This document shows, one piece after another, positions 2,422-33,038 of a stretch of DNA of 46,343 nt. Made by a program: the position numbers and the translations under genes. A model generated the notes under the pieces. That model was given only the letters and a program-made list of their open reading frames with translations. It made no database searches and had not been told where the DNA came from. The stretch is from a virus. The DNA lies in the IMG/VR virus record IMGVR_UViG_3300033816_000679, positions 1 to 46,343 of that record; one strand, written 5' to 3'. The stretch's first letter is position 1; the number at the start of each line of letters is the position of its first letter.

Positions 2422-4374
2422 ATGGCTACCCCGGCAATTCAAACCCTACTGACTGATGCCCAACAGGTGCTGAACCTGAAGTCCGTTTCCGAGATTCACG
2501 CCACGCTCGCCGCCGTTCTTGCCAACGCAAACGTCGGCACGCCGCTCAACCCGAATCTCACCACGCAACAGCTGTGGGATGAGTTCTACGAGATCGTTCG
2601 GCAGACGCCGACCGACATCGAGTCGATCCTGGTCAACCAAATGATGATATACATTTTCAATAACAGCAGTGTTATAAATGTTAAAAACTTCGGTGCCAAG
2701 GGCGACGGCGTCACTGATGACACGGCTGCGCTACAGGCTGCGCTGAACAGCGGAAAGCCTCTCTTCTGGGCGGGTCTGACCTATCGCATCACATCTCCCC
2801 TGACGCAGACCGCAACCGGAAATGTCTTTTGGGAGGGAATGAACGCGACCATCCTCTATGACGGTGCCCACACCGAGAGGGCGGTTCGTATTGCCGCATC
2901 AGGAGTCGAAGTGGTCATCAACGACATGACCGTCGATGGGAACAAGCTCTGCAACAAGTGCTTGGAGATCTACAACGATACTGACAGTAGCTCCAACTTC
3001 ACTGCGAACAACGTCTTCGCCAAGCGAGCCAAGCGAATCAACACCTTCAATGGTGGCGAGGGAATTCAGATTCGCGGTCTCTTCAAGGTGGTGACGTTCA
3101 ATGGTGGTGGAGTAAGCGATTGTGAACTGCCTGCTGGTCAAGGAACTCCCGGTTCTGTCGGTATTTCAGGCATCACTGTCACTTGGTACACCACAACTCG
3201 TTTCGTTTCTGAATTGATCCTCAACGGAGTCAGGATCGAGAAGATCTACAGTTCTGACTTGGCCTATCAATTCGATCAGGATGGAGTCAAATACTTTGTC
3301 CCAAATGCGACTGTTGGAACGGTCAAGGTTCAAGGACTTTTCACCTGCATTGGCAGCGAGTTCATCAATTGCTACGGCAGGTCCATCAAGACCCAGTGCC
3401 GCGACACCGTTGTCACCTCAAGCAGCTTCACGCGAACTGAAGGACTTACGTCTGGAGTTGGGAATCCAGAAGTGGATGCACAGAGTGGTAACGGAAACTT
3501 CAGAGACCTGAACTTCGACTATTCCAACGGACAGCAACCCGAAGCTTGCCTGAACGTATCAGGCTCGATTGGAACACCGGGTCTTCTTGCAGATGGATGC
3601 TCTGTTGTATGTGATGCTGGAACAACGCTTTCCATCTTTGCTCAAGTGTTCCCAAGCAATGGAACATTCTCTCGTCATGTTGTTTCAAACAACAAGGTGT
3701 ATGCTACTGTAAAAAAACTTTTTGAATATCTTTGCAATGGAAACAAGAACTATGCAGAGGTCAGCAACAACTATGTTCAGTCAATAGCGTTGGGCGAGAC
3801 ATCTGAGAGAGCATTGATTTACGTTAAATCAAGCGGTCTTACAACTCCAAGATTTGCTTATGTTACAGCGTTTGGGAATGTGTATGCTGACACAAATCTG
3901 CCTTCACTTGTAAGAGACAGTATTGCAGGAGTATCAATGAATTCAAACCTGTCTGCTTGGGGAAACTACGGTTTTGAAACCAATGGTGTTACAAATCCAG
4001 TTGCCTCCGGTCTCAAATCGAATGCGATTTCAAGACTTCAAAAAGTGGGTCCGTTTGAAGGAGGGTCTTATTTGCAGTTTGAAAACCTGTCAATAGCTTC
4101 TGGTGCTACGGCCACATTCAAAACGCCCAACAACTCACAGACAGGAATTGTCTTTATCAATTCAAACTTTGGAAGCACTGGCTATGCAATCTTTGCAAAC
4201 TCTTCGACTACTAACACTGTCATTAGCAAGGGGGCTTCATTTGAAATTGGAAATGCAGCAAGCCCCGGCATTGGAACATTCAGGGTTTGGAGCAGTGCAA
4301 CGAATGAGATAAGCATTGAGAACACGAATGCTTCGACCCGATCATTCGGCATCTTTGTGATGGTCAACGGATAA
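2422..4374 (+). CDS. Tail spike with pectate-lyase-type beta-helix
   Basis: A 650-residue protein. Residues 1-75 are a helical head that probably attaches to the virion. Residues about 88-110 contain VKNFGAKGDGVTDDTAALQA, the hallmark entry of Pectate_lyase_3/right-handed beta-helix spikes. It is followed by long repetitive beta strands rich in Asn, Gly, Ser and Thr. The last 230 residues or so, starting near 3690, are visibly richer in A/T and use A/T-ending codons more than the N-terminal third, suggesting a receptor-binding region exchanged from another source. The expected role is binding, and possibly cleaving, surface polysaccharide. The start follows the upstream gene by 3 nt. Confidence 0.85.
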   Translation: MATPAIQTLLTDAQQVLNLKSVSEIHATLAAVLANANVGTPLNPNLTTQQLWDEFYEIVRQTPTDIESILVNQMMIYIFNNSSVINVKNFGAKGDGVTDDTAALQAALNSGKPLFWAGLTYRITSPLTQTATGNVFWEGMNATILYDGAHTERAVRIAASGVEVVINDMTVDGNKLCNKCLEIYNDTDSSSNFTANNVFAKRAKRINTFNGGEGIQIRGLFKVVTFNGGGVSDCELPAGQGTPGSVGISGITVTWYTTTRFVSELILNGVRIEKIYSSDLAYQFDQDGVKYFVPNATVGTVKVQGLFTCIGSEFINCYGRSIKTQCRDTVVTSSSFTRTEGLTSGVGNPEVDAQSGNGNFRDLNFDYSNGQQPEACLNVSGSIGTPGLLADGCSVVCDAGTTLSIFAQVFPSNGTFSRHVVSNNKVYATVKKLFEYLCNGNKNYAEVSNNYVQSIALGETSERALIYVKSSGLTTPRFAYVTAFGNVYADTNLPSLVRDSIAGVSMNSNLSAWGNYGFETNGVTNPVASGLKSNAISRLQKVGPFEGGSYLQFENLSIASGATATFKTPNNSQTGIVFINSNFGSTGYAIFANSSTTNTVISKGASFEIGNAASPGIGTFRVWSSATNEISIENTNASTRSFGIFVMVNG

Positions 4375-12100: not shown

Positions 12101-14140
12101 ATGGTCGCCGAAAAGAATCGCGTGGTTGACGGCCTGCTCACCTCTGAAGGGGGTGTAGATAGCGGGTTCTCTCCGTCATTGATTCAACCCAACCAACTGG
12201 CTTGGGCGGTGAACACGACTGTCCGTGGAGGTTTTCCCAAGGCGCGGCCAGGGATCTGGTTGAAAGGGTTGACGTTCCCGGACGTCACCGAGGTTTACCA
12301 GAACGGGTACTACAACGCGGCCGTTAAAAAAGCGTTCACGGAGGGCTTCTTTCAGGGCTGCGGGACCTACATTTCCGACAGCGAAAAACCCTACCTGATG
12401 GCCGCAATCGGTGGGAAAATTTTCCAGATAGACATATCCGCTGGATTTCTGGTTCAGGACCTGACTCCGATTGGATTCCAATTCACGGTCAACACCAGAG
12501 GCCGGGTCTCAAACGTCGCTACCTACGTTTGCGCTGCACCCCACGGGCTTGCTGCCGGGATGGTCGTGCGACTCCCAGAGCCTGTTGGTGCATCGTTTCC
12601 TGAAGGATTCTTTGGGGACTTCGTAGTCGATAGCGTGCCTTCGCCGACGACTTTCACGGTGTACAATCCCGGAGTGGATGCAGGACCACTGCTTGGACCT
12701 TTGTTCTTCGGGTACAAAATGGAGACGGAAAGCCCAACGGCTGACCACGTGTTTTTCCAGCAGGCCGAAAACTGGTTGGTTGTCCAAGACCAGCAGAGCC
12801 CACCGTACCTTTACAACGGCGGGTCCTTGAGGCGCGCAACTGGAGAAGAGGTTCCAATCGGAGGCCCGATGGCTTACGGAAAGGGACGCCTCTGGGTTGC
12901 AAATGGATCAGAATACTACGGCGGCGATCTGGTGTATGGCGATCCGGCCTATGGGCGCGACAGCGTCATTCGATTCACCGAGAACACATTCCTCAATGAA
13001 GGTGGCGCCTTTGCTGTCTCCAATGGCCCGATCACCGGATTGGCGTTCGGCGCCAACTTGGACACGTCACTGGGAGATGGCGACCTGCTGGTATTCACCC
13101 CGACTGCGACCTACGCGTTCAACGCTCCAGTGGACCGCGACGTTTGGAAGGATCTCGATTATCCGATCCAGCGATTCGCGCTGTTGAACTTCGGCTCGTT
13201 TAACCATGAGTCGATTGTCCCGGTCAACGGTGACCTATTTTTCCGAGCGCAGGACGGCATTCGGTCGTTGATCTACGCCAGGCGCGATTTCACCGAATGG
13301 GGAAACACTCCTATTAGCCGGCAGGTTGTGAGGGCCTTGGCCTACGACACGGAATTTTATCTCAAGGCTGCTAGCTCCGTGAACTTCGACAACCGGATGC
13401 TGATGACCATACAGCCGCAGAAGGTAAACGGTCGCGGCATCGTTCATCGCGGGTTGGTTGTCATGGATTTTGACTTGGTTTCCGGAATGGGCCGGAAGCT
13501 GCCTCCCGCTTGGGAAGGCGTCTGGACGGGTGCTGACATTCTCCAGATGGTGACGGTTCGGGTTCAGAAATCCGAACGCTGCTTCTTTTTCGGGCTCAAT
13601 CAGGGAAAGATCGGCCTCTACGAGGTCACCCGCACTGGCCAGTTTGATTTTGATGGGTTCGATGATTCGCCGATCGAGTGGATCGTTGAAACACGCTCAC
13701 TCACGTTTGCCGAACCTGCCAACAAGAAGCGCCTGATGAGCGCCGAACAGTGGTACGATCAGGTCATGGGCAGCATCGAGGCCAAGGTCTACTTCAAGGC
13801 CAACGAGGGCGAGTGCTGGCATCCGTGGGCCGAGATCAAAGACTGCGCGAAATACCGCAACTGCGAGCCCGGTGAGGTTTCGTGCCCGCCGGCGGTGATC
13901 AACTGCCAAGAGGTCAAATACTACCAGCCGCCCGCCCGATCGCGCATCGCCCTGCCACAGCCGCCTGACAAGTGCGACGTGCAGACCGGCGGTTTCACTC
14001 GCGATGGCTACGAATTCCAGCTGCGTTATGTGAACACCGGCAGGTTTCGCTTGAAGCGAATTGCCATGGTTGCCCAACGTCTCCAGGAGGACATCTACGG
14101 CGATCTCAGCCGAGTGGCCTGCCCGTTACTCTCTGCCTAG
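12101..14140 (+). CDS. Large beta-rich tail protein (tail tube/nozzle candidate)
   Basis: 679 residues from ATG 12101 (MVAEKNRVVDGL). A beta-rich fold with repeated aromatic strands (ENWLVVQDQQSPPYLYNG, KGRLWVANGS) suggests a propeller as in podovirus tail nozzle proteins. The N-terminal DGLLTSEGGVDSG...AWAVNTTVRGGFPKARPG looks like a family signature. Residues about 127-198 hold a module (NVATYVCAAPHGLAAGMVV...TTFTVYNPG) that recurs in the next gene. The C-terminal part is Cys/Pro-rich. It opens the long tail operon, 43 bp from the divergent terminase start. I see neither a Shine-Dalgarno site nor a clear promoter, so the start is provisional. Confidence 0.7.
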   Translation: MVAEKNRVVDGLLTSEGGVDSGFSPSLIQPNQLAWAVNTTVRGGFPKARPGIWLKGLTFPDVTEVYQNGYYNAAVKKAFTEGFFQGCGTYISDSEKPYLMAAIGGKIFQIDISAGFLVQDLTPIGFQFTVNTRGRVSNVATYVCAAPHGLAAGMVVRLPEPVGASFPEGFFGDFVVDSVPSPTTFTVYNPGVDAGPLLGPLFFGYKMETESPTADHVFFQQAENWLVVQDQQSPPYLYNGGSLRRATGEEVPIGGPMAYGKGRLWVANGSEYYGGDLVYGDPAYGRDSVIRFTENTFLNEGGAFAVSNGPITGLAFGANLDTSLGDGDLLVFTPTATYAFNAPVDRDVWKDLDYPIQRFALLNFGSFNHESIVPVNGDLFFRAQDGIRSLIYARRDFTEWGNTPISRQVVRALAYDTEFYLKAASSVNFDNRMLMTIQPQKVNGRGIVHRGLVVMDFDLVSGMGRKLPPAWEGVWTGADILQMVTVRVQKSERCFFFGLNQGKIGLYEVTRTGQFDFDGFDDSPIEWIVETRSLTFAEPANKKRLMSAEQWYDQVMGSIEAKVYFKANEGECWHPWAEIKDCAKYRNCEPGEVSCPPAVINCQEVKYYQPPARSRIALPQPPDKCDVQTGGFTRDGYEFQLRYVNTGRFRLKRIAMVAQRLQEDIYGDLSRVACPLLSA

Positions 14141-14141
14141 T

Positions 14142-17075
14142 ATGCCCTCTTCAAACCCAGTTGATTACGGAGCAGATCCCTGCGGGCTACGAAACAGCGC
14201 GTGGGCGATCAACGAATGCTTGCTCACAGCTGGTCGATGCGATTTCCCGGCAGGCACGTTTCTGCTGGGGTCGAGTCCGGGGGCTAACATCACTCAGAGT
14301 CAAAGGACCGGTGGCTACACAACCTTTACAACTGCTACCCCGCACGGTCTTGTTCTTGGCGAAAAAATCACGTTGTACGGCATTTCGGTGGTTTACATCG
14401 ACCCGGCAACAACATTGCCGAGCAATCTCGGTCCAGGCCAATTTGGATTTCAGGTAACTGCGATTTACAGCCCAACTTCATTTCAGGTGTTGATGCCAGG
14501 AGCAAACACTCCGCTGGCAGCAGAGAATGGTTGGATCAACCTAATCGGAGGCGGATACACATCTTCGTTGGTCCTCGGATACGGACTTGCAACCGACAAC
14601 GTAGAGTTTGTCGGAAAAGGCATCGGGCAAACGACGCTGAAGTTCGCAAACCATACGTCAACCAAGCGACTCGATACCTATGGATTCAACATCCAGATGA
14701 TCAAGACGCTGGGGAATTATTCCGGAAGCGGCGTGGTTGGAGGTGCTGGAGCGTATCCGGGCCGCCCCGTGGATGCGACGAATTGCAAGAACACGCTGAT
14801 TCAAGGCATCACGTTCGACGGCAACTATGCCAACAACTCGGTTGCTGACATCGCAATTACATCCGTTTCAAGGACCGCTGGAGTAAACACGTACACGACC
14901 GCCTACCCGCATTTCATAACTGCGGTGGCAACTCCATCGTATGTCCCTCCCGTCGTTCCGTCCCCGTACACTAATGTCAGTGAAATTAATCAGTACATTT
15001 CAAATGTAAATATTGGCGGAGTCAGTGACATAAGTTTTAATGGGTACGGTTATGTTCAAAACATAACACAACAAACATTCCAGAGAGATTTTCGAGCGGT
15101 AATCATCGGCGGAAGGAACAACGGTTTTGCTGACATCTACACCAAGCACCCGCAATGGAACTTTGGTTTCACGCTTGGTGATAGCGTTGTCATTACGGGG
15201 ATGACCGACCCGGCCTTCAATGGCACAAAAACGGTCGATGGATTCCTTCCGGGCGGACAGGAGTTTTATTGTTTCCGCGCAACGGCGCCGATAACGCTGC
15301 CCGCTCAAAACGGACGCGTCTACTCTCCGACCTACTACCCGGACGTTCCAGCCACCGCGCAATCGACCGCAGGGGTCAACTCCTCCTACACGGTCGCTGG
15401 CATCAATCATCGCGGTGAAAACGCGGTGTTTCGCGACAACCAGTTCTACGACTTCGGCGTTGGTATCGCAGACGCTGAGACGTTCATCGCCCTCTCGTTC
15501 CTGCCCATGACGGTGGATACCGAGACGCAGGGGGTGAGGGTGATCAACAACAAATTCGGATACCAGGGGCGAAACTCGATTCAGAGCGTTCTCTATCCCG
15601 GCAACGCAGAAGCCAACACCCAGTGCGCGATCGGTGGATTTTCGAGCCTTGTGAATCCGATCAACGTGGTTTCCAGATCCGCTGGTGTGGCTACGTACAC
15701 CTGCGTCATGAAGCACACGCTGCGGGTTGGGGACGTGGTTGCCGTTTCTGGATTTTCAGCGGATCCGACATTCAACGGAACCGTTACGGTAATCAGCGTT
15801 CCGGACAATTATCGGTTCACTGCCGCAAATGCTGGGGTCAACGTGGTTCCGGGCAAATACATCGACGGAAGCGTCGAAATGCTTCGCAGCCAGCGGATCC
15901 TTGCAGCTGGATGCACCTTCGAGCGCAACGAGGTTCGCGGAGGACCAAACAAGGTCAACCAGCAGAGCCCAGTTCATGCTATCACCGTTCGAGAGACGTT
16001 AAACGCCGAGGTTCGCTACAACAATTTCGACGGGTTTACTGGAACCTGTTTCTACGTTGATTCGTACCAGCACTTTGGAACGCGTATTCACAACAACTCA
16101 GCGTTGGAGATTTGCGCGTTCATAGCGTTAAACGTGCAGGATTGGTATGAGTTGATCGGGCCGTTGACAGCGAATCCGAATCCGTATTCCACATTGATTT
16201 CAGCACACCGCGACATGGTTGTTGAAAACAATGACGTGTTACTTCAAGGCCCGGGAACTTGGTATTACCAGACGGCTTTCGATCCTCTCGACGCTGCGTT
16301 TATCGTCCTGAATCACGACGTTGATCGCAGCAAGTGGTACTACCCGACGGACTACCAGATTCCGATCAACCCCCCGTTGGCGTCTCCGGCAGGTGCGTCA
16401 AGAGATGGGAGCGGCATTTCAACATTTACAACGCAATCGGCGCACGAACTTCAAGTTGGAATGGAAGTTTCTGTGGTTGGAGTTGCTGACGGAACATTCA
16501 ATGGCGTTTTTACGGTTCTTACCGTACCAGCTGCAAATCAGTTCACGGTTACCAATCCCGGCGCCGTCGTTTCTTCCAGCGGCGGCTTCGTTGGCATCAA
16601 CCTCCCGGTGAAATTCCCCTGGGAAATGCTGCCCATCGCCTACCAGCGGACATCAAACGTCGCGACGTTCACCACGAACAAGGCGCATCACCTGTCCATC
16701 GGTGATCACGTGACGACCGAGGGTTTCATCAACACCAGCTTCAACGACGAAAACATCGTTACTGGAACGCCGACTCCAACCACGTTCACCTGCGCAAATG
16801 TCGGCCCGGACGTGGCGTTTACATCGGCAACCGGCAACTTTTTCCGGTACGTCAGCAACGTCCAGATCACGTGCAACACTGTGCGTCGTTTGAGCGGGCA
16901 GGATCTTGTTCGCAACAACGGCGGCCGGTTTGGAGCAACGTTCCTGGCTGGACGGCCAGACCGGTGCGTTGCGCCGCTAGATCAATTTTTCTATTTCGAT
17001 TGCCCGGGAGGGTGTCTCGATCTTCAATGCGACCCCGGCCCGTGTAAGCCAGACGATTACAGCTACCGAATCTAG
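14142..17075 (+). CDS. Modular beta-helix tail spike
   Basis: 977 residues from ATG 14142, one base after the previous stop. The N-terminus has a spike signature (VDYGADPCGLRNSAWAINEC, then GRCDFPAGTFLLG) of pectate-lyase-like helices. Inserted in it are several copies of a 65-75-residue module of the form '(V)ATYTT--AH-L-VGD-V-V-G----FNG---V--V----FT--N-G'. Clear copies lie near residues 317-390, 506-573, 747-813 and 829-900, with divergent ones near 47-125 and 238-265. The body contains beta-helix turns with Asn-rich corners (NAVFRDNQFYDFG, RVINNKFGY). The C-terminus ends in CPGGCLDLQCDPGPCKP, a Cys/Pro-rich cap. The expected role is receptor binding. Confidence 0.8.
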   Translation: MPSSNPVDYGADPCGLRNSAWAINECLLTAGRCDFPAGTFLLGSSPGANITQSQRTGGYTTFTTATPHGLVLGEKITLYGISVVYIDPATTLPSNLGPGQFGFQVTAIYSPTSFQVLMPGANTPLAAENGWINLIGGGYTSSLVLGYGLATDNVEFVGKGIGQTTLKFANHTSTKRLDTYGFNIQMIKTLGNYSGSGVVGGAGAYPGRPVDATNCKNTLIQGITFDGNYANNSVADIAITSVSRTAGVNTYTTAYPHFITAVATPSYVPPVVPSPYTNVSEINQYISNVNIGGVSDISFNGYGYVQNITQQTFQRDFRAVIIGGRNNGFADIYTKHPQWNFGFTLGDSVVITGMTDPAFNGTKTVDGFLPGGQEFYCFRATAPITLPAQNGRVYSPTYYPDVPATAQSTAGVNSSYTVAGINHRGENAVFRDNQFYDFGVGIADAETFIALSFLPMTVDTETQGVRVINNKFGYQGRNSIQSVLYPGNAEANTQCAIGGFSSLVNPINVVSRSAGVATYTCVMKHTLRVGDVVAVSGFSADPTFNGTVTVISVPDNYRFTAANAGVNVVPGKYIDGSVEMLRSQRILAAGCTFERNEVRGGPNKVNQQSPVHAITVRETLNAEVRYNNFDGFTGTCFYVDSYQHFGTRIHNNSALEICAFIALNVQDWYELIGPLTANPNPYSTLISAHRDMVVENNDVLLQGPGTWYYQTAFDPLDAAFIVLNHDVDRSKWYYPTDYQIPINPPLASPAGASRDGSGISTFTTQSAHELQVGMEVSVVGVADGTFNGVFTVLTVPAANQFTVTNPGAVVSSSGGFVGINLPVKFPWEMLPIAYQRTSNVATFTTNKAHHLSIGDHVTTEGFINTSFNDENIVTGTPTPTTFTCANVGPDVAFTSATGNFFRYVSNVQITCNTVRRLSGQDLVRNNGGRFGATFLAGRPDRCVAPLDQFFYFDCPGGCLDLQCDPGPCKPDDYSYRI

Positions 17076-17077
17076 CC

Positions 17078-18046
17078 ATGCCAACGATTGACATCACAGC
17101 TGGAGAGCTTCCACCTCCCCAGTGCTACGCCAGCGAACAAGATCGGCTGGAGGCGTATGCGGCCGCATTGATTGCCCAGCAGACGGTCGCGCCGGAGTGG
17201 GAGGCTAACGCAGTCTCCCCGCCCGCAGGATCCCCGCTTTATTGGCTCAGACTTGATGCCAACGCAAACCCCATCGAGATCCTGAAGTACAGCACCACGG
17301 CCCCGGCCGGGTGGGCGCGGGTTCAGACGCAGTTTACATACGGCGTCGGTGGCGGTGCAGCCAACGCCTACACGGTGACGCTGAGTCCCACTTCTCCAGG
17401 TGTGAATCAGGCTTATCGCACCGGTGTCTGCTACGCGTTTGTTGCGAACGCTCCGAACACGGGCGCCACTACGGTCGCTGTCGATGGGCTCGCGGCGAAG
17501 GCGGTTACCAAGTTTGGCACCATTCCGCTGGTCGCCAACGACATCGTGGCCAACCAGATGTGCGTCGTCGTGTACGACGGCACGCGTTTCCAGCTGTTGA
17601 ACCCCGGCTTGAACATTGGTCCGGCAAACTTTTCACCCGGAACTGATCGCCAGTTCCTTCGGACTAACTCGACGCCAGGCACGGTCTGGGAGTCTGGATA
17701 CATCACGCCAGTGGCGAATTATCAGGCGATTCCGGCGGCAGGTTCTGCGGTTACGTTCACACACGGCCTCGGAGTTGATCCGTTGACTTGGGACATCGGG
17801 ATTATCTGCACGGATGCCGGTGGTGATGCGACGTATGCCTTGAATGACTACATACCGGTTGGAAGCATTCTGCGCACAGACCTTTCTCAAAGCGAACTGC
17901 GCATTACCTCGTATTCCAATGCCACGGTTATCGGCATGGTTCGCAACAACTTCGTTTCAGGGATTTACGTGAACGGAAAAACCACCGGAGTTTTGACCGC
18001 GATCGACGTAGCCAAATGGAAAGTCATGGCCCGCGCCATCCGCTAA
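17078..18046 (+). CDS. Tail fibre-like protein
   Basis: 322 residues. The first 50 residues contain LEAYAAALIAQQTVAPEWEANAV-type helix and may attach to the tail. Residues about 88-178 form a fibre module (ANAYTVTLSP, NTGATTVAVDG, LVANDIVANQMCVVVYDG, FQLLNPG) common in phage fibres that carry a trimeric beta structure. The C-terminal 120 residues are a different beta domain ending VAKWKVMARAIR, perhaps the tip. It starts 2 nt after the spike gene and precedes the adaptor-like gene by 1 nt. Host contact is inferred. Confidence 0.75.
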   Translation: MPTIDITAGELPPPQCYASEQDRLEAYAAALIAQQTVAPEWEANAVSPPAGSPLYWLRLDANANPIEILKYSTTAPAGWARVQTQFTYGVGGGAANAYTVTLSPTSPGVNQAYRTGVCYAFVANAPNTGATTVAVDGLAAKAVTKFGTIPLVANDIVANQMCVVVYDGTRFQLLNPGLNIGPANFSPGTDRQFLRTNSTPGTVWESGYITPVANYQAIPAAGSAVTFTHGLGVDPLTWDIGIICTDAGGDATYALNDYIPVGSILRTDLSQSELRITSYSNATVIGMVRNNFVSGIYVNGKTTGVLTAIDVAKWKVMARAIR

Positions 18047-18047
18047 C

Positions 18048-19139
18048 ATGAGAAAAACCCTCGCCCAAGCCAAGAACTCCACGATCGCACAGGCTGTTGG
18101 TCTGGCCACCTGCGACGAGCGTTTCGTCCAGCTGCTGAACGAGGCTCAAGCGCGGCTTGCTGACATGGGCAAGTGGTGGGGCACGTACAAGAAGCTCCGC
18201 ATCTGCGTTACCGCCGGCTGCATCACTTGGCCTCGCGAGGTTAAGACGATCGAGGCGATGAACGTCTGCGGGTACAACATCCCGATCCAGAACCAGTGGT
18301 ACGAGTTCCAGACGGACGAGCGGGCGCCGCGCACCGGTTGCGGTCGTGAGGGCTGCGAGCAAGACCAGCTGCTGGATCGCGGTATGGTCACGCAGTATCG
18401 GGACTCAGTAGGCAGCTGCAAGTTCCGGGTGTACCCGTCTCTGACGGCCGATGCCGGCAAACGTATCCTGCTTCAGGGCATAGATCCCGTGACCAACGAG
18501 GAGATCCGCACGCTGGATACGGTGAGCGGCGAGTACGTCTGGGGCGAGTACGTCACGTTGCCGAACCCTGCTATCACGCCGTTCGTTGAGACTACGAACC
18601 TGTTTAAGCAGCCTGGTCTCAATGGTGCCCAGAAGCCGCTGACTCAAGGACGCGTCACGATCGTGGCCTACAACCCTACCACGACGATTTCTACACAGGT
18701 GGCCGTCTGGGGTCCCAGCGAAGAAAACCCCGAGTACCGCCGGACCTACCTGATCGGGATGCCCGAGGTCTGCGGTGGAACCTCCGGATGCAACGCGCAA
18801 GCGGAGAATGATTGCATCGACCACGGCGACGGATGCGTGCCTCCAGATGAGGAATGCACCAACACGGTAGTCGAGGCGATCGTGCGTCTGGAGTTCATTC
18901 CGGCCATCGTTGACTCCGATTGGCTGTTCATCGGCAATCTCCAGGCGATCAAGCACATGATGAAGGCCATCCAGAAGGAGGACCGGAATCAATACACCGA
19001 GGCTGAACGCGAGATCCAGTTGTCTCTGCGATCCCTCAGAAACGAACTCGAGGCCTACAGCCCCAACGAGCGCAGCGTGATCAACGTGCAGCCGTTCGGA
19101 TCGGCCAAGACTGAATTCATCTTCGGTGGATTTATCTGA
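18048..19139 (+). CDS. Adaptor/tail tubular A-like protein
   Basis: 363 residues. Helical N-terminus (AQAVGLATCDERFVQLLNEA, ARLADMGKWWG), then beta segments (VKTIEAMNVCGYNIPIQNQWYEF) and a helical C-terminus (LFIGNLQAIKHMMKAIQKE and EREIQLSLRSLRNELEAY). This two-sided helical layout resembles podovirus adaptor or gp11-like tail proteins that bind below the portal, as recalled from metagenomic relatives. It has many cysteines (about residues 93-104 and 243-267). Its stop overlaps the next start by 1 bp. Confidence 0.65.
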   Translation: MRKTLAQAKNSTIAQAVGLATCDERFVQLLNEAQARLADMGKWWGTYKKLRICVTAGCITWPREVKTIEAMNVCGYNIPIQNQWYEFQTDERAPRTGCGREGCEQDQLLDRGMVTQYRDSVGSCKFRVYPSLTADAGKRILLQGIDPVTNEEIRTLDTVSGEYVWGEYVTLPNPAITPFVETTNLFKQPGLNGAQKPLTQGRVTIVAYNPTTTISTQVAVWGPSEENPEYRRTYLIGMPEVCGGTSGCNAQAENDCIDHGDGCVPPDEECTNTVVEAIVRLEFIPAIVDSDWLFIGNLQAIKHMMKAIQKEDRNQYTEAEREIQLSLRSLRNELEAYSPNERSVINVQPFGSAKTEFIFGGFI

Positions 19140-19603
19140 TGACCGAAGAGCTTCCAGTTGTAGTGCAGCCGGTGACGTGGTTGGAATTTCTGACTGACGC
19201 AGACGTTCCGCTCGACGATCGACTGGATCGTTGGGAAGCGTTTGTCTCGGACAAGCCCCAGATCGAGTGCCCGCTCAACCATACCTATCCAGAGGGGTTG
19301 TACGTGCGGGAAATCTTTGCGCCAGCTGGATCAATCATCACCAGTCGGATTCACAAGTTCGATCACCCGTTTTTCCTGCTTCAAGGAAAGCTCACGGTGA
19401 TCAGTGAAACCGAGGGACTGGTTACGTACACGGCGCCGATGTACGGAATCACCCTACCGCAGACGCGGAGGGCAATTTTGATTCAAGAGGATACGGTCTG
19501 GGTGACAGTCCATCCCAATCCTCAGAACAAGAAAGATCACGAAGAGATACGCAACGACCTCACTTACGTGAGGGATAACAAATATTTACTATGTCTTGGG
19601 TAG
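19139..19603 (+). CDS. Cupin-fold virion-associated protein
   Basis: 154 residues. A central beta-barrel signature spans about residues 57-125: YVREIFAPAGSIITSRIHK, HPFFLLQGKLTVIS, PMYGITLPQTRRAI and DTVWVTVHPN. This resembles the small cupin proteins found in tail operons of many podovirus-type phages, where no reaction has been shown to my knowledge. Candidate metal ligands are the His residues in RIHKFDHP and VTVHPN. The C-terminal helix (KKDHEEIRNDLTYVRDNKYL) may pack on the tail. It overlaps the adaptor-like gene and the next gene (13 bp). Confidence 0.75.
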   Translation: MTEELPVVVQPVTWLEFLTDADVPLDDRLDRWEAFVSDKPQIECPLNHTYPEGLYVREIFAPAGSIITSRIHKFDHPFFLLQGKLTVISETEGLVTYTAPMYGITLPQTRRAILIQEDTVWVTVHPNPQNKKDHEEIRNDLTYVRDNKYLLCLG

Positions 19604-21263: not shown

Positions 21264-24200
21264 ATGCCACGCATCGTTGAGATTCCAGATGTAGCTCGCC
21301 TCTCGTTTCCGGACGACCTCAGTGACGATGCGGTCCTGGAAGCAACGAGGAATTTCTACGAGCAGTCTAAGCAGGGTGCTTTAGGGGCCGCTGGCGCAGC
21401 GACAGTGCGTGAGCCTCCACGTACAATCGGCAAAGCCATGAAAGCGGCGGCGCGCCTCACCGATTGGCTTCAGCCTCCCGATGTAAACCCTGAAACGGGA
21501 ATTCCAATTTGGCAGCAAGCCGAATCGACTTTCCTTGGTCCAGAAACTGTTACGCCAGTCGAGAAACCTGCACCTGTTCCAGTTGAGCAGACAGGTCTGT
21601 ATCAGGCGGGCGAGTCCCTTCAACGCGGCGCCGAGAAGATGTTTCCGGTCAGCCCATTGCGTGAGCAGGATTTTCTTACTCAGGTGGGTTCCGGAATCGG
21701 ATCGTCGGCAACCTCGTTCATCCCTTATCTCGGACCAGCAATCTACGCAGGTAGCACTGCTGAGGATGCTGCGGAAAAAGCGGGGCGTTTCTACGACAAC
21801 AAGATCGCGGAGGCGATGGCAGCTGGAAATGGCGCTGAGGCAAGCCGGTTGCAGGAGGAGAAGAAGTACCAACAGGCGCTTCAGTTCGGACTCAACGCGC
21901 CGTTAGGCTATGCAACCGAGCGATTCTTAGGCGTAGTCCCTGGCCTCAAACAAATCACCGAGGGCGGCGGAAAACTCATTCCCAAGCTCGCCCCTGGACA
22001 GACCATTGAGAACACTAAGAAGCTCGCCGGGTATTTCGCTAAGCAGGGCGTCAAGCCGACAATCGGAGAATTCGCCCAAGAGGGATTGGAGCAGGCTGGC
22101 GGCAACCTGAGTGAGATGGCTTACAATCCAGAGGCTGAATTTTTGGATGGAGTCATTGACGCATCTGGTGTTGGCGGAACAGTTGGGGCCATCACCTCGA
22201 TCCCGCTGAGCCTGCTTGGGTCAAAACTGCGGAAGAATCGGTTGGATAGAATCAAGGATTTCCGGGACACAAGGCTGGCCGAGGGGCCGCTTTCGGATCA
22301 GCAGATCAAGGAAATCAATGACAGGATAGTCGCAGGCCAGCCGCTTTCAGAACCGGAGCCAGGAAGTCTGTTAAATCTTCTCAGCGAAGACCCAGCCGCT
22401 CGCTCCTCAGTCGGAGGAAACAACGCTGAACTCCTCCCCAACGCCACCGCCACTCTGGCGGGAATCAACTCCGGCGGCGCGCCTTCTGGGCCGATTCGCA
22501 TCACGCCGCCGCCTGTGACTGGTGGCGCTCCTGGGGAAGAAGCCAAGATTCCAGACATGGCTCTGGAGACGGATGTTGTTGATGAGGAGACTCCGATCGA
22601 GGTTGCTGCTGTTGCGCCTGAGACTGTCGCTGTCGCCGAGACGTCAACTCCCGCCGCTCCCGCCGAAGTCCAGCTGCTGACGATCGAGGAGACGCAGGAG
22701 TACAACGCGGGCGTCGATCTCGGAACGGATTCCATGTCGGATGAGGAACTGATTCGCTTCGAGGAACTCGCCGGCCGCGTTCGACAACTGGAGCAGGCTG
22801 GGTTTGAGTTCGATGAAACGACTGGATGGGCTAAACCAGGGGTGGCTGCTACGCCGGCTGAGGTTCCAGCTACGCCGGCAGAAACGCCAGCTGTGGCACA
22901 GGAGCCCACACCGTTCAAAGTGGCGCCTGATTTCCGGTACACGATCACGGAAGCTCCAAATTACGGATTAAGCCCGCTCTCATACAAAGACGCAGACTTC
23001 GACTTGGAGGCCCTTCAGTTCCAAGCAGAGCGGGGCCGCCTAACTCCAGAAAGGTTTGCTCAATCTGAAATCGGAAGGCGGATGGATAGTGGCCAGATGA
23101 GCGGTGTTAACAGCGGTTTAAAGGTAGATCCCGTTGGAACCATCAAAGCCTTGCGAGCCGCGCTGGTTCCTGCGCCGGCCGCTGCGCCAGCTGCACCCAA
23201 ACCAACCCCCGCACCTCGGCCCGCGCCCGCCCCGTCACCTCAAAACCCGCTCGCCAACCAAACCGTTGGATTCGGAAAACATTCCAACCTCCTGGTCAAA
23301 GACCTCCTTGCGCAGCAGCCAGACTACGCCGCATGGCTGGTCAGAAGTACCAGGAGCGCCGCGCCAGGATCACGCACGCGCCAGGTTGGCGACTACATCA
23401 GCTCGCTGCCGGAATACCAAAACGCAGTCACAGAAGAGAAAGCGAAAGCCGAAGCAATCCTTACCGATGAAAACAAAACTTTCCTTACCGGCCTCAAAAT
23501 CACCGCTCAGCAGAACCCGGACGGCAGCATCACCCTCCGGGGCAAAACTTACGACCGCCAGGACGACCTCCGTGCCGCTGGTGGACGGTATTCCAAAGAC
23601 AGCCGCACCTACACCATCTCTGCCGCCGGTCTTGGGCAGTTTATCGAGCGATCAAGAACTGATCCAGGGACTACTGGCGGACAAAGAAGTGGTAGCCCGG
23701 CTTATTCCCGTGATGTTGAACTCCGAAAACTCCGAGAGGATGCGGACAACCGGCCCGACCGAAGCGGATTGGATGGAGGCGTTGACAACTATCTTAGCGT
23801 AGAAACCCAGGAGCTTATCCGACAGGGTGAAGACTTTGGGATCCCAAGGGAAGTTGGGGATGAGCAGATTGAAGATGCAGCCCTCATGGTCCAAGCGTTT
23901 GCAACCAAGCGCCCATTCTTCATGCTTTCCAGCGCACCTGGAACCGGAAAGACCTTCGTGCTTGGGGCTGGTATTCGCGAGATGCAGGACCGTTTCGCCC
24001 GCAAGATCATCTACGTTACCCTCAACCGGGGTCTGATCAAACAGATCCAGCAGGATCTCAAGGCCTACAATCTCGGACCCGTAAAGTTCATCACCTACTC
24101 GGAGATGAAAGACCTCGCGCCGGAAGAATCAGACGTGCTGATCTTCGATGAAGCGCACGCGATTAAGAATCTGGCAGGAGCAGGGTCTGACCAAGCCAAG

Positions 24201-27200
24201 AAGGCTCAGGAATGGATCCAGCAAACCAAGTTCCCAATCTTCTCGACTGCAACGCCGTTCGAGAACCCGACTCAGACAGCCTACCTGCTGAACACTGGAA
24301 TCTTTGATTCGTTCAACGGTGACTACAAACAGTTCGCTGCGGCATACGGAGCGACCCCGATCAAAAAAGACGGTCAGGTAGTGAGAACGGTTTGGCTCCC
24401 GACTAAGACCAACGAGCAGGATCAAATTGCGGCGAGAAACTTCTTCCGAAAAGAGGGCATCTTCACGGCCCGAAAGACCCGGCTGCCGGCGGATAAAGTT
24501 GATTCGCGTCTGGTGGCTATCAAGGGTAACCAGAAATGGACCGACATCTACAACGCGTTCTCCGACGAAGCGGAAAACCAAAAGGGCTCGCTAGACGGTA
24601 CGGACAAGATGTGGGTGATCAACTACAAGAAGCGCCTGCTGGAAGCGTCGAAGGTTGGAAACGCGATCAACGAGGCATGGCGAGCTTTGAATGCTGGCCG
24701 TTGGCCGATCATCTTCGTTGAGACCAAGGCGGAGAGAACCATCGACATCAACGAACAGCGCCGTCTCCAGCAGGAATTTAAGCGCGCCAAGGCGCTGGCT
24801 AAAATGATGGGCGGTGAATCGCCTAGGAGAAGCGATTACCCTGGTTTGCTGTCAGACGGACTGATCAACCTTCTGGAGTCCACGATGGACAAGGTTGGCG
24901 TCTCGGCTATCGAGATACCGTCTGCTGAAGATGTCATTAAACGCGAGATTGGGGCACAGAACGTCGCGATCTTCACTGGCTCCATTCCAGATTCCCAAGC
25001 CCAGAAGAACCTCGAAGAATGGCGCGGAAAGCAACCTATGGTCCTGGTCGCAACCATGGCTAAGGGAGGCACCGGCTTGTCACTGCACGACAAGACCGGC
25101 ACTCATCCGACAACCCAGATCAATGTCAACCTGCCGTGGACTGCCACCCAGGTTGAGCAGGTATCACTGCGTTCCGCCCGATACGGCCTCAAGAGCAAAG
25201 CTCAGATGATGTGGCTCTTTGCTGACAACATTCCGTTCGAGCGGGAATTGGCGCAGCGGGTTGGTGGCCGCATGAGGGACATGGGCGCGCTGGTTCAAGG
25301 AGAAGCCGGAGCTACTGCTGCCAACATCAAGAACTTCAATTTCGAGGATGAATCATTCTCGGAGGCTAACGCTGCCGAGGCAGCTAAGAAGGATCTGACG
25401 AAGGAGGAGCCTAAGGTTACGCCACCACCTGCCACTCCCGCTCCAGCAGCCGCACCGAAGGCCAAGAAGGCCCGCGAATGGACGTTCCGAGGCGACATCC
25501 TGGATGACATCATCAATCTGGGCGGCGTCATGTCCAGGTCGCAGGCCAAGAAGGAGGGCCGACTGGATGCGATCAAGAGCCTCTATGATGACGCTCCGAG
25601 GCTGAAGCCGTTCTTCAACAAAATCTTCGCAGGCAGGTCGCGTGGAACCGCCAGCCGGAACCAGCCCGACGTGTTGCTTCAGGAACTCGCCATGGAAAAT
25701 CCTGGCAAGTACGGAGATATGACGGTTGCGGAGTTCTGGGCCGAGATAGAGAAGGCAGCACGCGGGCGTGAAGGCGACACTGCCGAGGCGCGCAAAGAAG
25801 CCAAAGCAGCAGCCGCTGGAGCCGAAGAAGCGATGGGCTTGGACGCGTTCTTGCAGGCGCAGGATGAAGCGTTCGCCGACGCGCAGACCGAGGCCATGCA
25901 ACGCAAAGGCGAGCCGGATGGCCCCGTCGAGGTATCGGTTGGAAGTCTGTCGCTTGGGGACAAGTTCTCGATCCAAGGCGAGCAGTTCGAGGTGACCGGG
26001 ATCACGCCGGATGGCGACTACACGATCAGGGATGGCCAGAAGTTTGGCGTCCAGAGTCTGACCGAATACGACACGATCTTCGTGGACTCAGCGCCAGTGG
26101 CCAAGGAAGAGGGGGTCCCACGGACGCCGCGCCTTGGAGCCATGCAGCAGCAGGGCGACCTATTGGCAGGACAGGCAGAATCATTCGCACTGGTTGGCGA
26201 AAAGGGTGTCGATTACGAGAAGCGCCAGCGCGAAGCGGAGGCGAAGGCTCGCGCCGCTGCTGAAGCCAAGGCCGCCCAGGAGAAGGCGCAGACTCAGATG
26301 GATCTTGGCGACGCCGTCGCCGAAGCCTCCGACGCGATCGCCCAGTTCGTCGAGTCCATCACTCCCAAGGCCGGCATCACCGACGGGCCGACGCCCGAGG
26401 AGTCTGCGCGCCGGGTTCTCGAAGCTCTTACCAAGCTCGCCTCCGCCGCGATCCGTTCCGGCATTCAGAGCGCATCCCGGTGGGCGGCTGGCTTACAGCT
26501 GAAGCTCAGTCCAGCATTGCAGTACGCCTGGGACCGCGCTCAAGGATCGACAGCTGAACCCACGCCGGAGGTTATCGCCGATGTAGCCACCATTCCGGAG
26601 CGTGCGGCTACCGACTTCGGTATGATCTACACTACGCCCGGCCAACCTGTGACCACCAAACGTGGCGCATACGAGGATACGGTTGCTGGGCGCCGGTCCC
26701 GGACTCCCGAGGTGCAGAACGCTGGCTTCCAGCTGGCAGTCGATGCGTTCAATGAGGCAGGGGTGAAGTTCCGCCAAGTGGGCGACGCCTTGTTCGCGCC
26801 TGTCGATGGGGTTGACCAGGAGGATGCTGGAAGAAAGCTGATCGAGGTCGCCAAAAAGAAGATCGCCAAAGCCAAGGCTGATGGTCGCAGCGATACCATC
26901 GCAGAGTTGATCCAGTCGCTCCGCAACCACTTCGGCGCATCCGAGGCATTCAGCCCTGATACCCGAGATGAACTCTACCTGATCGGTCAGTCTGAGGCGT
27001 CCCAGTTTGGTATTAACCTGGCGAGCCTGAGGGCGTCCGTGAAGGACTTCGTGGCCATGGCCCGTAACGTGCGTGGATTCCTCACCTCTGCCATCTACGA
27101 CAACTTCAACGGCGAGAGCGTCAAGGGCGTGATGGACAAGATCATGGCTGAGTTCCGTGGACAGTTCACCGAAACCGAGATTCAGAAGATCGTTGGCGAG

Positions 27201-30989: not shown

Positions 30990-31997
30990 ATGAGCAACCT
31001 TGCGCTACAGCAAACCACTCCCACGCAATCCCAAGCACTGAGCGCGTTCTCTTCGGAGAGCGCGTTCGTTTCTGTGCAACGCATGGCCAAGGCCCTTGCG
31101 TCCAGCACCCTCGTTCCCGATTCCTATCGCGGCGAGGCAAACCTCGGAAACTGCATCATCGCGCTGGAACTCAGTCAGCGCATCGGCGCCTCGGTCATGG
31201 CCGTCATGCAGTCGATGGTCCCAATCCACGGCAAGCCAACGTGGTCTGCATCGTTTCTGATTGCCACCGTCAACTCCTGTGGCCGGTTCTCCCCGATGCG
31301 TTTCCGTTGGGTCGGACAAGAGGGGACAGATGACTGGGGCTGCCGCGCTTTCGCTGTCGAGCGCGAGGGCAACCTCGAGCTTGTCGGCGCTCTGGTGACG
31401 ATCGCCATGGCCAAGGCCGAGGGTTGGTATGGCAAGTCTGGCAGTAAATGGAAGACCATGCCGGAGCAGATGCTTCAGTACCGCGCAGCTGCGTTCTGGT
31501 GCCGCGCCTATGCGCCGGAGATTGCGTTGGGTATGCACACCTCGGAAGAGATCCACGACACTCAGGTAGCCCAACAGGTCGTGCAGCCGTCTGTCGCTAC
31601 CACCGTGACCAGTTCCGTTGTAGACGTGACCCCGACGCCGCCTGAGCCCAAGCCGCGCAAGAAGAAGGTCGAGCCCGAAGCCATCGCGGTCGCCGAGCCT
31701 GTGCCTGTGCCTGAACCTGAACCTGCGCCGGCTCCCGAGCCTGAGCCCGCACCGGTCGAGGCTACTGCCACCCCGGCACCGCTGCCCGAGTTGGTTGAAG
31801 AAACCGTCGAGTCCACACTGGCCTCGGTTGGTGCGACCTACGAGCAGCTGGTGAAACTCGCCACCGAACTGAACTGGTGGCCGACGCCCGAGGCGTACCC
31901 GACGGCGAATGATCTGACTGAAGACCTGAAGAAGTGGGTGATCCGCAACAAGCGCGGTATCGGTCGGGCAATGATGAAGGCAGGAGGTGCCCTGTGA
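30990..31997 (+). CDS. recT: RecT-family single-strand annealing protein
   Basis: 335 residues. Residues 25-190 carry the RecT signature: MAKALASSTLVPDSYRGEA, NCIIALELSQRIGASVMAVM, VPIHGKPTWSASFLIATVNS and QYRAAAFWCRAYAPEIALG. It anneals complementary single strands during phage recombination. Residues 210-275 are a Pro/Glu/Ala/Val linker with PEPEP repeats. The last 50 residues form a helical tail (TYEQLVKLATELNWW, KKWVIRNKRGIGRAMM). It heads an operon with a RecE-like nuclease. Its stop overlaps the next start (GTGA). Confidence 0.9.
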   Translation: MSNLALQQTTPTQSQALSAFSSESAFVSVQRMAKALASSTLVPDSYRGEANLGNCIIALELSQRIGASVMAVMQSMVPIHGKPTWSASFLIATVNSCGRFSPMRFRWVGQEGTDDWGCRAFAVEREGNLELVGALVTIAMAKAEGWYGKSGSKWKTMPEQMLQYRAAAFWCRAYAPEIALGMHTSEEIHDTQVAQQVVQPSVATTVTSSVVDVTPTPPEPKPRKKKVEPEAIAVAEPVPVPEPEPAPAPEPEPAPVEATATPAPLPELVEETVESTLASVGATYEQLVKLATELNWWPTPEAYPTANDLTEDLKKWVIRNKRGIGRAMMKAGGAL

Positions 31998-32242
31998 ATC
32001 AAATATCACTGCTAGGGCAATGTTTTCACACGTTTTCCGAAAATGGCAAATTGGAGTGGCAAGGAGTTGTCATTGGGAACCCGGAACCAGGGTGGTATCT
32101 GGTTCAACTTTGTGAATGGTTGTTTGGAAATGCGAGTAATCGGCGCATCGTCAGGATTGAAGAAATGAGTAAATGGGTTTTTTACAAGGATAGTGAGCAG
32201 ATGAATGAGGCTTACGACCGTAAGTATTCAGGAGAATTGTAA
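31994..32242 (+). CDS. Small protein between recT and the exonuclease
   Basis: 82 residues from GTG 31994, behind AGGAGGT and overlapping the recT stop by 4 bp. It looks like a small beta/alpha unit (GVVIGNPEPGWYLVQLCEW, RRIVRIEEMSKWVFYKD). Its DNA is visibly richer in A/T than recT or the exonuclease, which may mean recent acquisition. Location suggests a link to recombination, but there is no recognisable motif. Confidence 0.7.
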   Translation: MNQISLLGQCFHTFSENGKLEWQGVVIGNPEPGWYLVQLCEWLFGNASNRRIVRIEEMSKWVFYKDSEQMNEAYDRKYSGEL

Positions 32243-32243
32243 C

Positions 32244-33038
32244 ATGAAACTTATCCACCCCATCGACGTACACACGTATCGCCAACACCCGGCGATCAAC
32301 ATCTCCAGTCTCAAGGCATTCTCCCGCTCACCGGCGCACGCCATGGTCGGCTTTGAGGAAGAGAAGGAAACCACGGACGCCATGAACATCGGCAGCCTGC
32401 TGGACCACAAGGTTCTCGGCACGCCGTACCTCTGGACCACGTCGCCATTCGATGACTACCGGACCAAGGAGGCACGCAGCTGGAGAGACGAGCAGGAGGC
32501 CCGAGGCGTCACCGTGTTCAAGCAGGACGCAATCGAAACCGTCGAGCGCATGGTCGAGGCCGTTCGCGAACACCCAGTTGCGGGACGCCTGTTTGCGGAA
32601 CCGGGCAAAGCGCAGGTCGGGATGTTCGGTGAGTTCGAGTCCTGCGAACGCAAGGGCCTGATCGACTGGTTGCCTAACACGACCCCGGTAATCGTGGACC
32701 TGAAGAAATGCCGCGATGCTAGCAAGGCCGGGTTCCGGCGCCAGATTGGCCAGCTGCGCTATGACGTGCAGGCTGCCTACTACCGTGACCTGTACCGGGA
32801 CATCACCGGCGAGACACGCGCATGGCAGTGGATCTGCGTCGAAGACCAGGCGCCCTATGCGGTCGCTGTGTACCAGCTGGACACCGAATCCTTGGACAAG
32901 GGTTCTAGCACGTGGCAGTCGTGGATCCGCCAGTGGATGATCTGCGAAGACACCGACAGCTGGCCCGGGTACAACGGCGACTCCATCCAGATCATTCAAT
33001 CCCCCGGATGGATCCTCAAAGATGAAACTCTCCCGTGA
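32244..33038 (+). CDS. Exonuclease VIII-like (RecE/PDDEXK) nuclease
   Basis: 264 residues from ATG 32244 behind AGGAGA. N-terminal INISSLKAFSRSPAHA, then NIGSLLDHKVL with the His found before the core. The PDDEXK core is D141 in RKGLIDWLP, D152 and K154 in VIVDLKK, and a Q-x3-Y-type helix (RRQIGQLRYDVQAAYY). This is the pattern of RecE/exodeoxyribonuclease VIII-type phage nucleases (DUF3799-like). It would resect double-strand ends to make 3' single strands for RecT. Its last 17 bp overlap the next gene. Confidence 0.88.
   Translation: MKLIHPIDVHTYRQHPAINISSLKAFSRSPAHAMVGFEEEKETTDAMNIGSLLDHKVLGTPYLWTTSPFDDYRTKEARSWRDEQEARGVTVFKQDAIETVERMVEAVREHPVAGRLFAEPGKAQVGMFGEFESCERKGLIDWLPNTTPVIVDLKKCRDASKAGFRRQIGQLRYDVQAAYYRDLYRDITGETRAWQWICVEDQAPYAVAVYQLDTESLDKGSSTWQSWIRQWMICEDTDSWPGYNGDSIQIIQSPGWILKDETLP

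Follow-up and report, generated by a model that had tools for sequence, protein, structure and literature searches.

The barrel type described in this study, and its insertion in beta-helix tailspikes, are already known. The endosialidases of phages K1F (1v0e, 3ju4) and phi92 (4hiz) carry one copy of such a barrel (PF12195) in a catalytic tailspike, where it interrupts a propeller. K1F binds polysialic acid at three sites, one of which is the barrel; the loop changes S460R, S468D and G504V there discriminate between hosts and alter which of them are infected (PMC12632334). In KP34gp57, LKA1gp49 and the GTA tailspike TspA a right-handed beta-helix is interrupted by one six-stranded barrel, to which TspA adds a C-terminal barrel (PMC10653864, PMC13420450). 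According to PMC10653864, the barrel in KP34gp57 and similar tailspikes completes the active-site groove or catalytic pocket. The GH110 alpha-galactosidases (PdGH110B, 7jw4) are bacterial dimeric enzymes that combine a beta-helix with two small barrel domains, which serve dimer contacts (PMC7939477). The same fold is found in the FCCH domain of the E1 enzymes UBA1 and UBA6 (PF16190). Smug et al. 2023 (PMC10684548) describe domain shuffling that is centred on tail spikes, on fibres and on receptor-binding proteins. Ig-like domains are a familiar example of promiscuous domains in phage virions.

Here we describe a locus whose arrangement is new: the barrels are present in several copies, can be nested, and are replaced one slot at a time in a pair of virion proteins. 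The locus lies in a stretch of viral DNA of 46,343 nucleotides (IMG/VR record IMGVR_UViG_3300033816_000679), which was analysed as a whole and is called the window below (Table 1).

Table 1. Features of the window discussed in the text, with their positions
Feature	Position	Strand	Evidence or remark
Tail protein, 679 aa	12101..14140	+	beta-propeller-like; model confident only at residues 56-250
T1 barrel module, tail residues 124-207	12470..12721	+	between propeller blades 84-120 and 218-245
Spike, 977 aa	14142..17075	+	right-handed beta-helix with six barrel modules (predicted)
S1 module, spike residues 49-138	14286..14555	+	profile
S2a module, residues 237-322, long insert inside, least certain	14850..15107	+	weak profile matches; strand pattern with short helical turn in L002 model
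S2b module, residues about 330-401	15129..15344	+	55.5 bits, refined profile
Slot A, around residues 380-383, empty in the window	15279..15290	+	relatives with one or two extra modules there
S3 module, residues 508-580	15663..15881	+	profile
Slot B, S3 loop between strands 3 and 4, residues 534-546, plain in the window	15741..15779	+	alignment, L002 model
S4 module, residues 750-821	16389..16604	+	profile
S5 module, residues 832-904; sole spike module not exchanged among close relatives	16635..16853	+	profile, pair comparison
RecT-like ssDNA-annealing protein	30990..31997	+	phrog_561 8.3e-70; PF03837 1.7e-5
Exonuclease VIII-like (RecE-type) partner of RecT	32205..33038	+	phrog_412 7.3e-65

Results

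A module shared by the tail protein and the spike

The tail protein contains one copy (T1), and the spike six (S1, S2a, S2b, S3, S4 and S5), of a unit some 70 residues long that follows the pattern R..gvATYtT..pHgl..Gd.V.i.G..d.sFNGtftV...pspt.Ft..n.G. BLASTP aligns the two proteins at 38.8% over 67 columns (E 8e-6). A profile made from S1, S3, S4 and S5 only gives the T1 segment of the tail protein 42.6 bits, whereas the highest score among 2000 shuffled versions of that protein is 5.1 bits. In leave-one-out profiles, each real copy was compared with the best of 2000 shuffles: 25.1 against 10.4 bits for S1, 45.3 against 14.0 for S3, 54.2 against 16.3 for S4, 50.6 against 13.9 for S5 and 49.0 against 9.8 for T1. 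S2, which was entered as a single piece of 165 residues, scored 16.7 and 15.6 bits in two parts against 10.6 for the best shuffle. Profile, BLASTP and leave-one-out comparison agree on one homologous beta module in both proteins, as a previous sequence-only reading of this DNA had claimed; the background-level score on the tail segment that was to count against that claim did not occur. The same reading had allowed four to six copies in the spike, of which the upper end is right, and had placed T1 at tail residues of about 127–198, where it is indeed present, with boundaries that we find at about 124–207.

The copy that we trust least is S2a. It is degenerate, with weak scores of 14.1 and 7.4 bits, and S2a and S2b at first looked like one split copy. 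In a six-frame translation of the whole window, the profile refined on relatives matched no further frame (next best E 0.85, 654 fragments); an early module profile had given 17048–18043 at E 0.013.

The copies have diverged, as had been noticed before, and recent tandem slippage can be rejected as their source. There is no module-length tandem array, no DNA repeat longer than 22 nt was reported within the two genes, and no pair of modules in one phage is more than 56% identical.

Predicted fold of the module and of its frames

We modelled the tail protein of the window and the spike of a relative, L002, with AlphaFold2. The L002 spike carries a nested module and is 92% identical to the window spike. 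As a whole both models are poor, with a mean pLDDT of 57.7 for the L002 spike and 39.9 for the tail protein, but the modules are confident, mostly at 70–93 and 80–92. The best match of the T1 model is the phi92 endosialidase (4hiz; Z 9.7, 2.1 A, 81 residues, 24% identity), and it also matches residues 424–507 of the K1F endosialidase (Z 8.6–8.7) and the FCCH domain of UBA6/UBA1 (Z 7.6–9.3). Spike modules from the L002 model match the UBA6/UBA1 FCCH domain with Z of about 9–10.2 (1.9–2.8 A), and the nested module matches 4hiz with Z 9.8 (2.3 A, 77 residues). When the module profile was compared with the PDB, the top five matches were all endosialidases (E 0.0011–0.0017).

From the model matches to phi92, K1F and UBA6/UBA1, the assignment of the module to a six-stranded small beta-barrel of the endosialidase/FCCH type is well supported as a predicted fold, but its sequence does not reach membership in the Pfam families. 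For PF12195 (End_beta_barrel, cut-off 35 bits) S3 alone scores 16.9 bits (E 0.0063). Out of 25 modules, five have a match with E no higher than 1, the best being 1.1e-5, and a search across the window at E up to 10 gave no match. For PF16190 (E1_FCCH, cut-off 29.5 bits) S3 in the spike scores 17 bits (E 0.0063), and three of the 25 modules have matches within the same E limit of 1. It had been suggested that a predicted structure could decide between an Ig-like and a carbohydrate-binding fold. The models point to the endosialidase/FCCH barrel instead of an Ig-like fold: the barrel matches account for the modules, and the best match is not Ig-like. Ig entries are absent among the matches listed, which by itself is no proof.

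In the tail protein, the two blades that flank T1 align jointly, with T1 left out, to residues 56–146 of chain Y of the Pa223 tail (C6) with Z 9.3 over 84 residues, and for this reason T1 appears to interrupt a propeller. The tail protein is a candidate for the tail nozzle or for a protein adjoining the nozzle.

The spike model shows a right-handed parallel beta-helix frame, with pLDDT low in parts. With the modules left out, the frame of the L002 model aligns to HK620 (4xqf; Z 11.6, 3.7 A, 243 residues) and to the tailspikes of Sf6, KP32gp38 and KP34gp57 (Z 10.4–11.4); for these tailspikes and the GH110 enzymes together, Z is 10–11.6 over about 220–300 residues. The best Foldseek match of the spike model is PdGH110B of GH110 (7jw4, E 2.7e-7). 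The alignments to HK620, Sf6 and KP32gp38 over about 245 residues (Z about 11) bear out the suggestion that modules interrupt a beta-helix.

Some features of these and other proteins of the window deserve mention in their own right. Both proteins have cysteine-rich C-terminal stretches (13840–14010 and 16950–17060) that are nearly invariant in relatives and are possibly disulfide or metal sites. A second beta-helix spike of 650 aa (2422–4374, plus strand), with matches to Pect-lyase_RHGA_epim and to the endosialidase N-terminal extension, has no barrel module. Just downstream of the spike cluster, a 154-aa protein (19139–19603, plus strand) resembles short tail fibres and tail fibre adhesins (phrog_12032, 2.1e-27).

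Module number varies among relatives

As relatives we used 80 listed loci in IMG/VR, with tail proteins 82–100% identical to that of the window. T1 is present exactly once in all 80 of these tail proteins. Among 84 tail proteins including the window, 79 are accompanied by a spike start and 77 by a spike of more than 900 aa; the rest were dropped. The 77 full spikes, again including the window, correspond to 59 distinct ones. Loci L085–L158 are mostly longer stretches of contigs that were already included and entered no count. Further viral scans for more distant relatives of the tail protein, in which the best 80 of 97 and of 106 confirmed loci were listed, returned the same group, and none was found in genome contigs, PHROGs or PDB profiles. 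In INPHARED neither the tail protein nor the spike has a match at 1e-5, and at E up to 10 there are weak matches to the module only.

The spikes from loci with a T1-bearing tail protein vary in module number, in whole-module steps at two fixed slots. Across the 77 spikes, slot A, which follows S2b, is 178–186, 248–262 or 330–342 residues long, corresponding to zero, one or two extra modules. Slot B, which lies inside S3, is 76–81 or 144–152 residues long, corresponding to zero or one. All six combinations of slot states occur (A0B0 14, A0B1 13, A1B0 26, A1B1 14, A2B0 2, A2B1 8), and the window spike is A0B0. Hence, one spike chain carries six to nine barrels across the group.

In 35 of the 77 spikes slot B is occupied: a complete nested module with spacers stands in place of the S3 loop that joins strands 3 and 4. 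In the L002 model, the S3 strands at 496–530 and 614–648 enclose a full six-stranded module at 533–608, with pLDDT mostly 80–93. At the DNA level, replacement of the slot B type can be seen in pairs such as L027/L028 and L004/L006, with flanking DNA 96.8–98.5% identical. Nested alleles recur in contigs of different metagenomes (L002–L005 and others), which speaks against single misassemblies.

The slots have changed repeatedly. On the tail-gene tree, the minimum is 11 changes for slot A and 16 for slot B; on five spike-flank trees it is 10–13 and 13–16. When branches with support below 95 are collapsed (three trees), still 9–10 and 10–13 changes are needed, counts that do not separate new gain or loss from exchange between lineages, to which part of the slot changes is due. 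A turnover of modules between relatives is well supported.

Exchange and selection

Whether modules are replaced independently of the protein that carries them can be seen in 103 pairs with at least 93% DNA identity in the spike backbone. These pairs involve 43 of the 59 distinct spikes and are not independent of each other. In every one of the 103 pairs, all six backbone segments that were compared keep at least 75% DNA identity. The modules drop below this level in 27 (S1), 11 (S2a), 23 (S2b), 51 (S3), 36 (S4) and 0 pairs (S5). The figure for S3 is due to nesting, as it mixes nested with plain modules; among pairs in which both are plain, 0 of 22 fall below even 85%. In the tail gene of the same 103 pairs, T1 falls below 75% in 45, residues 56–123 in 29, residues 208–300 in one and the other five segments in none, so T1 is the segment of the tail gene that is most often replaced. 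Among 58 rows with a complete tail protein there are 41 combinations of alleles (at 85% protein identity) and slot states.

The pN/pS ratio within alleles amounts to 0.045 in T1 and to 0.08–0.13 in the spike modules, and hence the modules are maintained. To judge from these sequence comparisons, the alleles appear to be old, functional and replaced whole. One could argue that a promiscuous phage domain has simply accumulated by drift and plays no selected part, as may be so for other domains that are widespread in virions; the module does occur in several kinds of virion protein in other phages (see below). The low pN/pS within alleles, the presence of T1 in all 80 tail proteins and the confinement of whole-module steps to two slots make this explanation quite improbable to us. 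Variable module alleles within a conserved frame could also be the work of a diversity-generating retroelement or a site-specific invertase. Neither a reverse transcriptase (PF00078) nor a serine recombinase (PF00239) is present in the 46 kb record, which may be incomplete. Moreover, alleles differ by replacement of whole segments, and pN/pS within alleles is far below 1. Given these two families searched in this record and the pattern of the alleles, targeted diversification of this kind seems extremely unlikely.

We did not see modules moving between slots: T1, S1, S2b, S4 and S5 each form one group in the module tree. B copies intermix with S3, and A1 with A2; a few of the copies labelled B may be pieces of S3, the module that hosts them.

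Origin of the module

The sequence-only reading had taken the shared module as proof of its spread between two neighbouring virion genes. The shared homologous module stands, and the spread itself is no more than possible, because unrelated phages carry the module in diverse virion proteins: outside the group, phages of Klebsiella, Pantoea, Microbacterium, Actinomycetia and cyanobacteria have copies in major and minor tail proteins, in fibres and in head-region proteins. With such a wide pool, separate acquisition explains the data equally well. Fifteen INPHARED records hold a module of the slot A type, and a search for the S4 type at E up to 0.1 found nothing there.

T1 and the spike modules could conceivably go back to a single module that was copied from one of the two genes into the other, and some observations lean that way. 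T1 stands beside S4 in the module tree, with weak support (80). Its mean identity to the spike copies is 26–37% by position (best 49%), against 30% (best 42%) for outside copies, so it is slightly closer to S4 and S5 (mean 37%) than to the latter. However, resolution is poor: over 72 columns with long branches, a tree that unites all modules of the phage group in a single clade, apart from 19 copies of other origin, is compatible with the data but not required by them (p-AU 0.565). The barrel module is also common in other phages. We regard copying between the neighbours as possible, with the balance tilting somewhat against it.

Three outside proteins that contain or match the module are worth recording. 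In Pantoea phage PdC23 a protein of 291 residues beside the major capsid gene (UGC97718.1, L160:3500–4372) is annotated as 'endosialidase'; since the barrel module is the sole match that we saw in it, this is probably an annotation artefact, and it calls for caution where a barrel alone gives a protein its name. In Actinomycetia phage DSL-LC01 from lake water (L162:1305–9866) a 2853-aa 'ALK tyrosine kinase receptor' carries at least nine module copies over threshold. Residues 14–96 of the head-to-tail interface protein of phage FCWL1 (PDB 9jlf, chain E) match T1 with Z 7.5 (2.5 A, 79 residues); barrels of this type may be frequent in the connectors of phages.

Discussion

What could the barrels do? 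The function best supported, by analogy, would be glycan contact. We take the modules as glycan-contacting heads from two observations, the polysialic-acid site in the K1F barrel and a shared loop. With the 1v0e chain counted from residue 245 (an inferred numbering, chosen because a serine then falls at both 460 and 468), S460 and S468 of K1F map to the two ends of the stretch that aligns with the loop joining strands 3 and 4. This loop is the site of nesting in slot B, and it is also longer in S1 and T1. The swapping, adding and nesting of barrels on otherwise near-constant proteins suggests a system for changing which bacterial surface is recognised.

The barrels could instead be mainly structural, serving inter-subunit contacts, the shaping of a depolymerase groove or the spacing of the spike, with their variation merely tolerated. 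In KP34gp57 and tailspikes like it, barrel insertions finish the catalytic pocket (PMC10653864), and in GH110 enzymes, which are among the best whole-spike matches, they give dimer contacts (PMC7939477). S5 is conserved among close relatives. That S5 is never exchanged and T1 sits inside a propeller means that some copies may be structural, and both facts, together with the missed Pfam cut-offs, count against reading the modules as recognition heads. Nevertheless, it is unlikely that the barrels are mainly structural. First, module segments alone are replaced between phages with near-identical backbones. Second, a whole barrel can be added inside another barrel. Third, the alleles remain under purifying selection. 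Within this alternative, a role in the active-site groove, by analogy with KP34gp57, would be a serious rival to glycan contact.

On balance, we consider it rather probable that endosialidase-type barrels are exchangeable host-recognition cassettes on a conserved tail and spike frame. The barrel would be a surface ornament on two virion proteins, sitting once between propeller blades and six times as an interruption of the beta-helix spike. The barrels would be in contact with the surface polysaccharide of the host and govern binding or specificity; attachment, trimer shape and perhaps catalysis would come from propeller and beta-helix. Comparison among relatives indicates that alleles at T1, S1, S2, S3 and S4 are replaced whole and that the spike gains or loses modules at the two slots. 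The exchange would most likely occur by recombination between the conserved flanks during co-infection. RecT/exonuclease annealing pairs are of a type known to recombine diverged DNA, and the phage's own pair (Table 1) may be an agent that helps the exchange. The outcome would be a conserved virion frame with shuffled recognition heads. More tentatively, and at somewhat less than even chances, the two proteins may carry a combinatorial set of glycan-reading barrels that are swapped, added and stacked at fixed slots by recombination alone, without retroelement or invertase.

Upstream of the RecT gene lies a frame of 3226 aa (21264–30944, plus strand) with a superfamily 2 helicase region (ResIII, Helicase_C and a Strawberry-notch-type C-terminal domain). 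Its product could be a giant protein that is injected, with a helicase or antirestriction role.

The host range of phages is usually thought to change by swaps of whole fibre tips or by point mutations there. Here the unit of change would be a barrel of 70 residues, with six to nine places per spike chain and one in the tail protein, and one of the spike places can itself hold another barrel. On the more tentative, combinatorial reading, the barrels would form a modular array for recognition that follows the surface polysaccharides of the hosts. Should the barrels read surface sugars, the natural variants, which share the same frame and differ in their barrels, would be a ready-made test of how many sugar contacts a tailspike needs and of which loop sets specificity.

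In the open-licence literature we found no description of a nested, countable or exchangeable barrel array, and the papers listed there for the FCCH domain together with phage concern ubiquitin enzymes, judged by title; the End_beta_barrel family appears in work on the prediction of receptor-binding proteins. Among known systems, the endosialidases of K1F and phi92 are alike in the barrel fold, in being the top PDB profile matches and in inserting the barrel in a propeller protein, as T1 is. In contrast to their one copy in a catalytic tailspike, the present phages combine one barrel in a propeller protein of the tail with six to nine on a beta-helix spike; barrels are also nested and exchanged here, and the PF12195 cut-off is unreached. 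The E1 FCCH domain is alike in fold (Z about 8–10, 2–2.6 A, 75–81 residues) and in the weak match of S3 at 17 bits, but there is no E1 enzyme context here, identity is 10–20%, and scores are below the Pfam cut-off of 29.5 bits.

KP34gp57, LKA1gp49 and TspA come closest in their interrupted beta-helix. Unlike their one insertion, the spike here holds six and up to nine barrels, one of them inside another, and whole modules vary among relatives. GH110 enzymes share the beta-helix with small barrels, but they are bacterial dimers that use the barrels for contact between subunits. The domain shuffling of Smug et al. 2023 is likewise concentrated in receptor-binding proteins, while the words FCCH, endosialidase and nested do not occur in its main text. 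What sets this locus apart from known tail mosaicism is that, among phages of a single group, barrels of one type are replaced at individual slots and added as whole modules.
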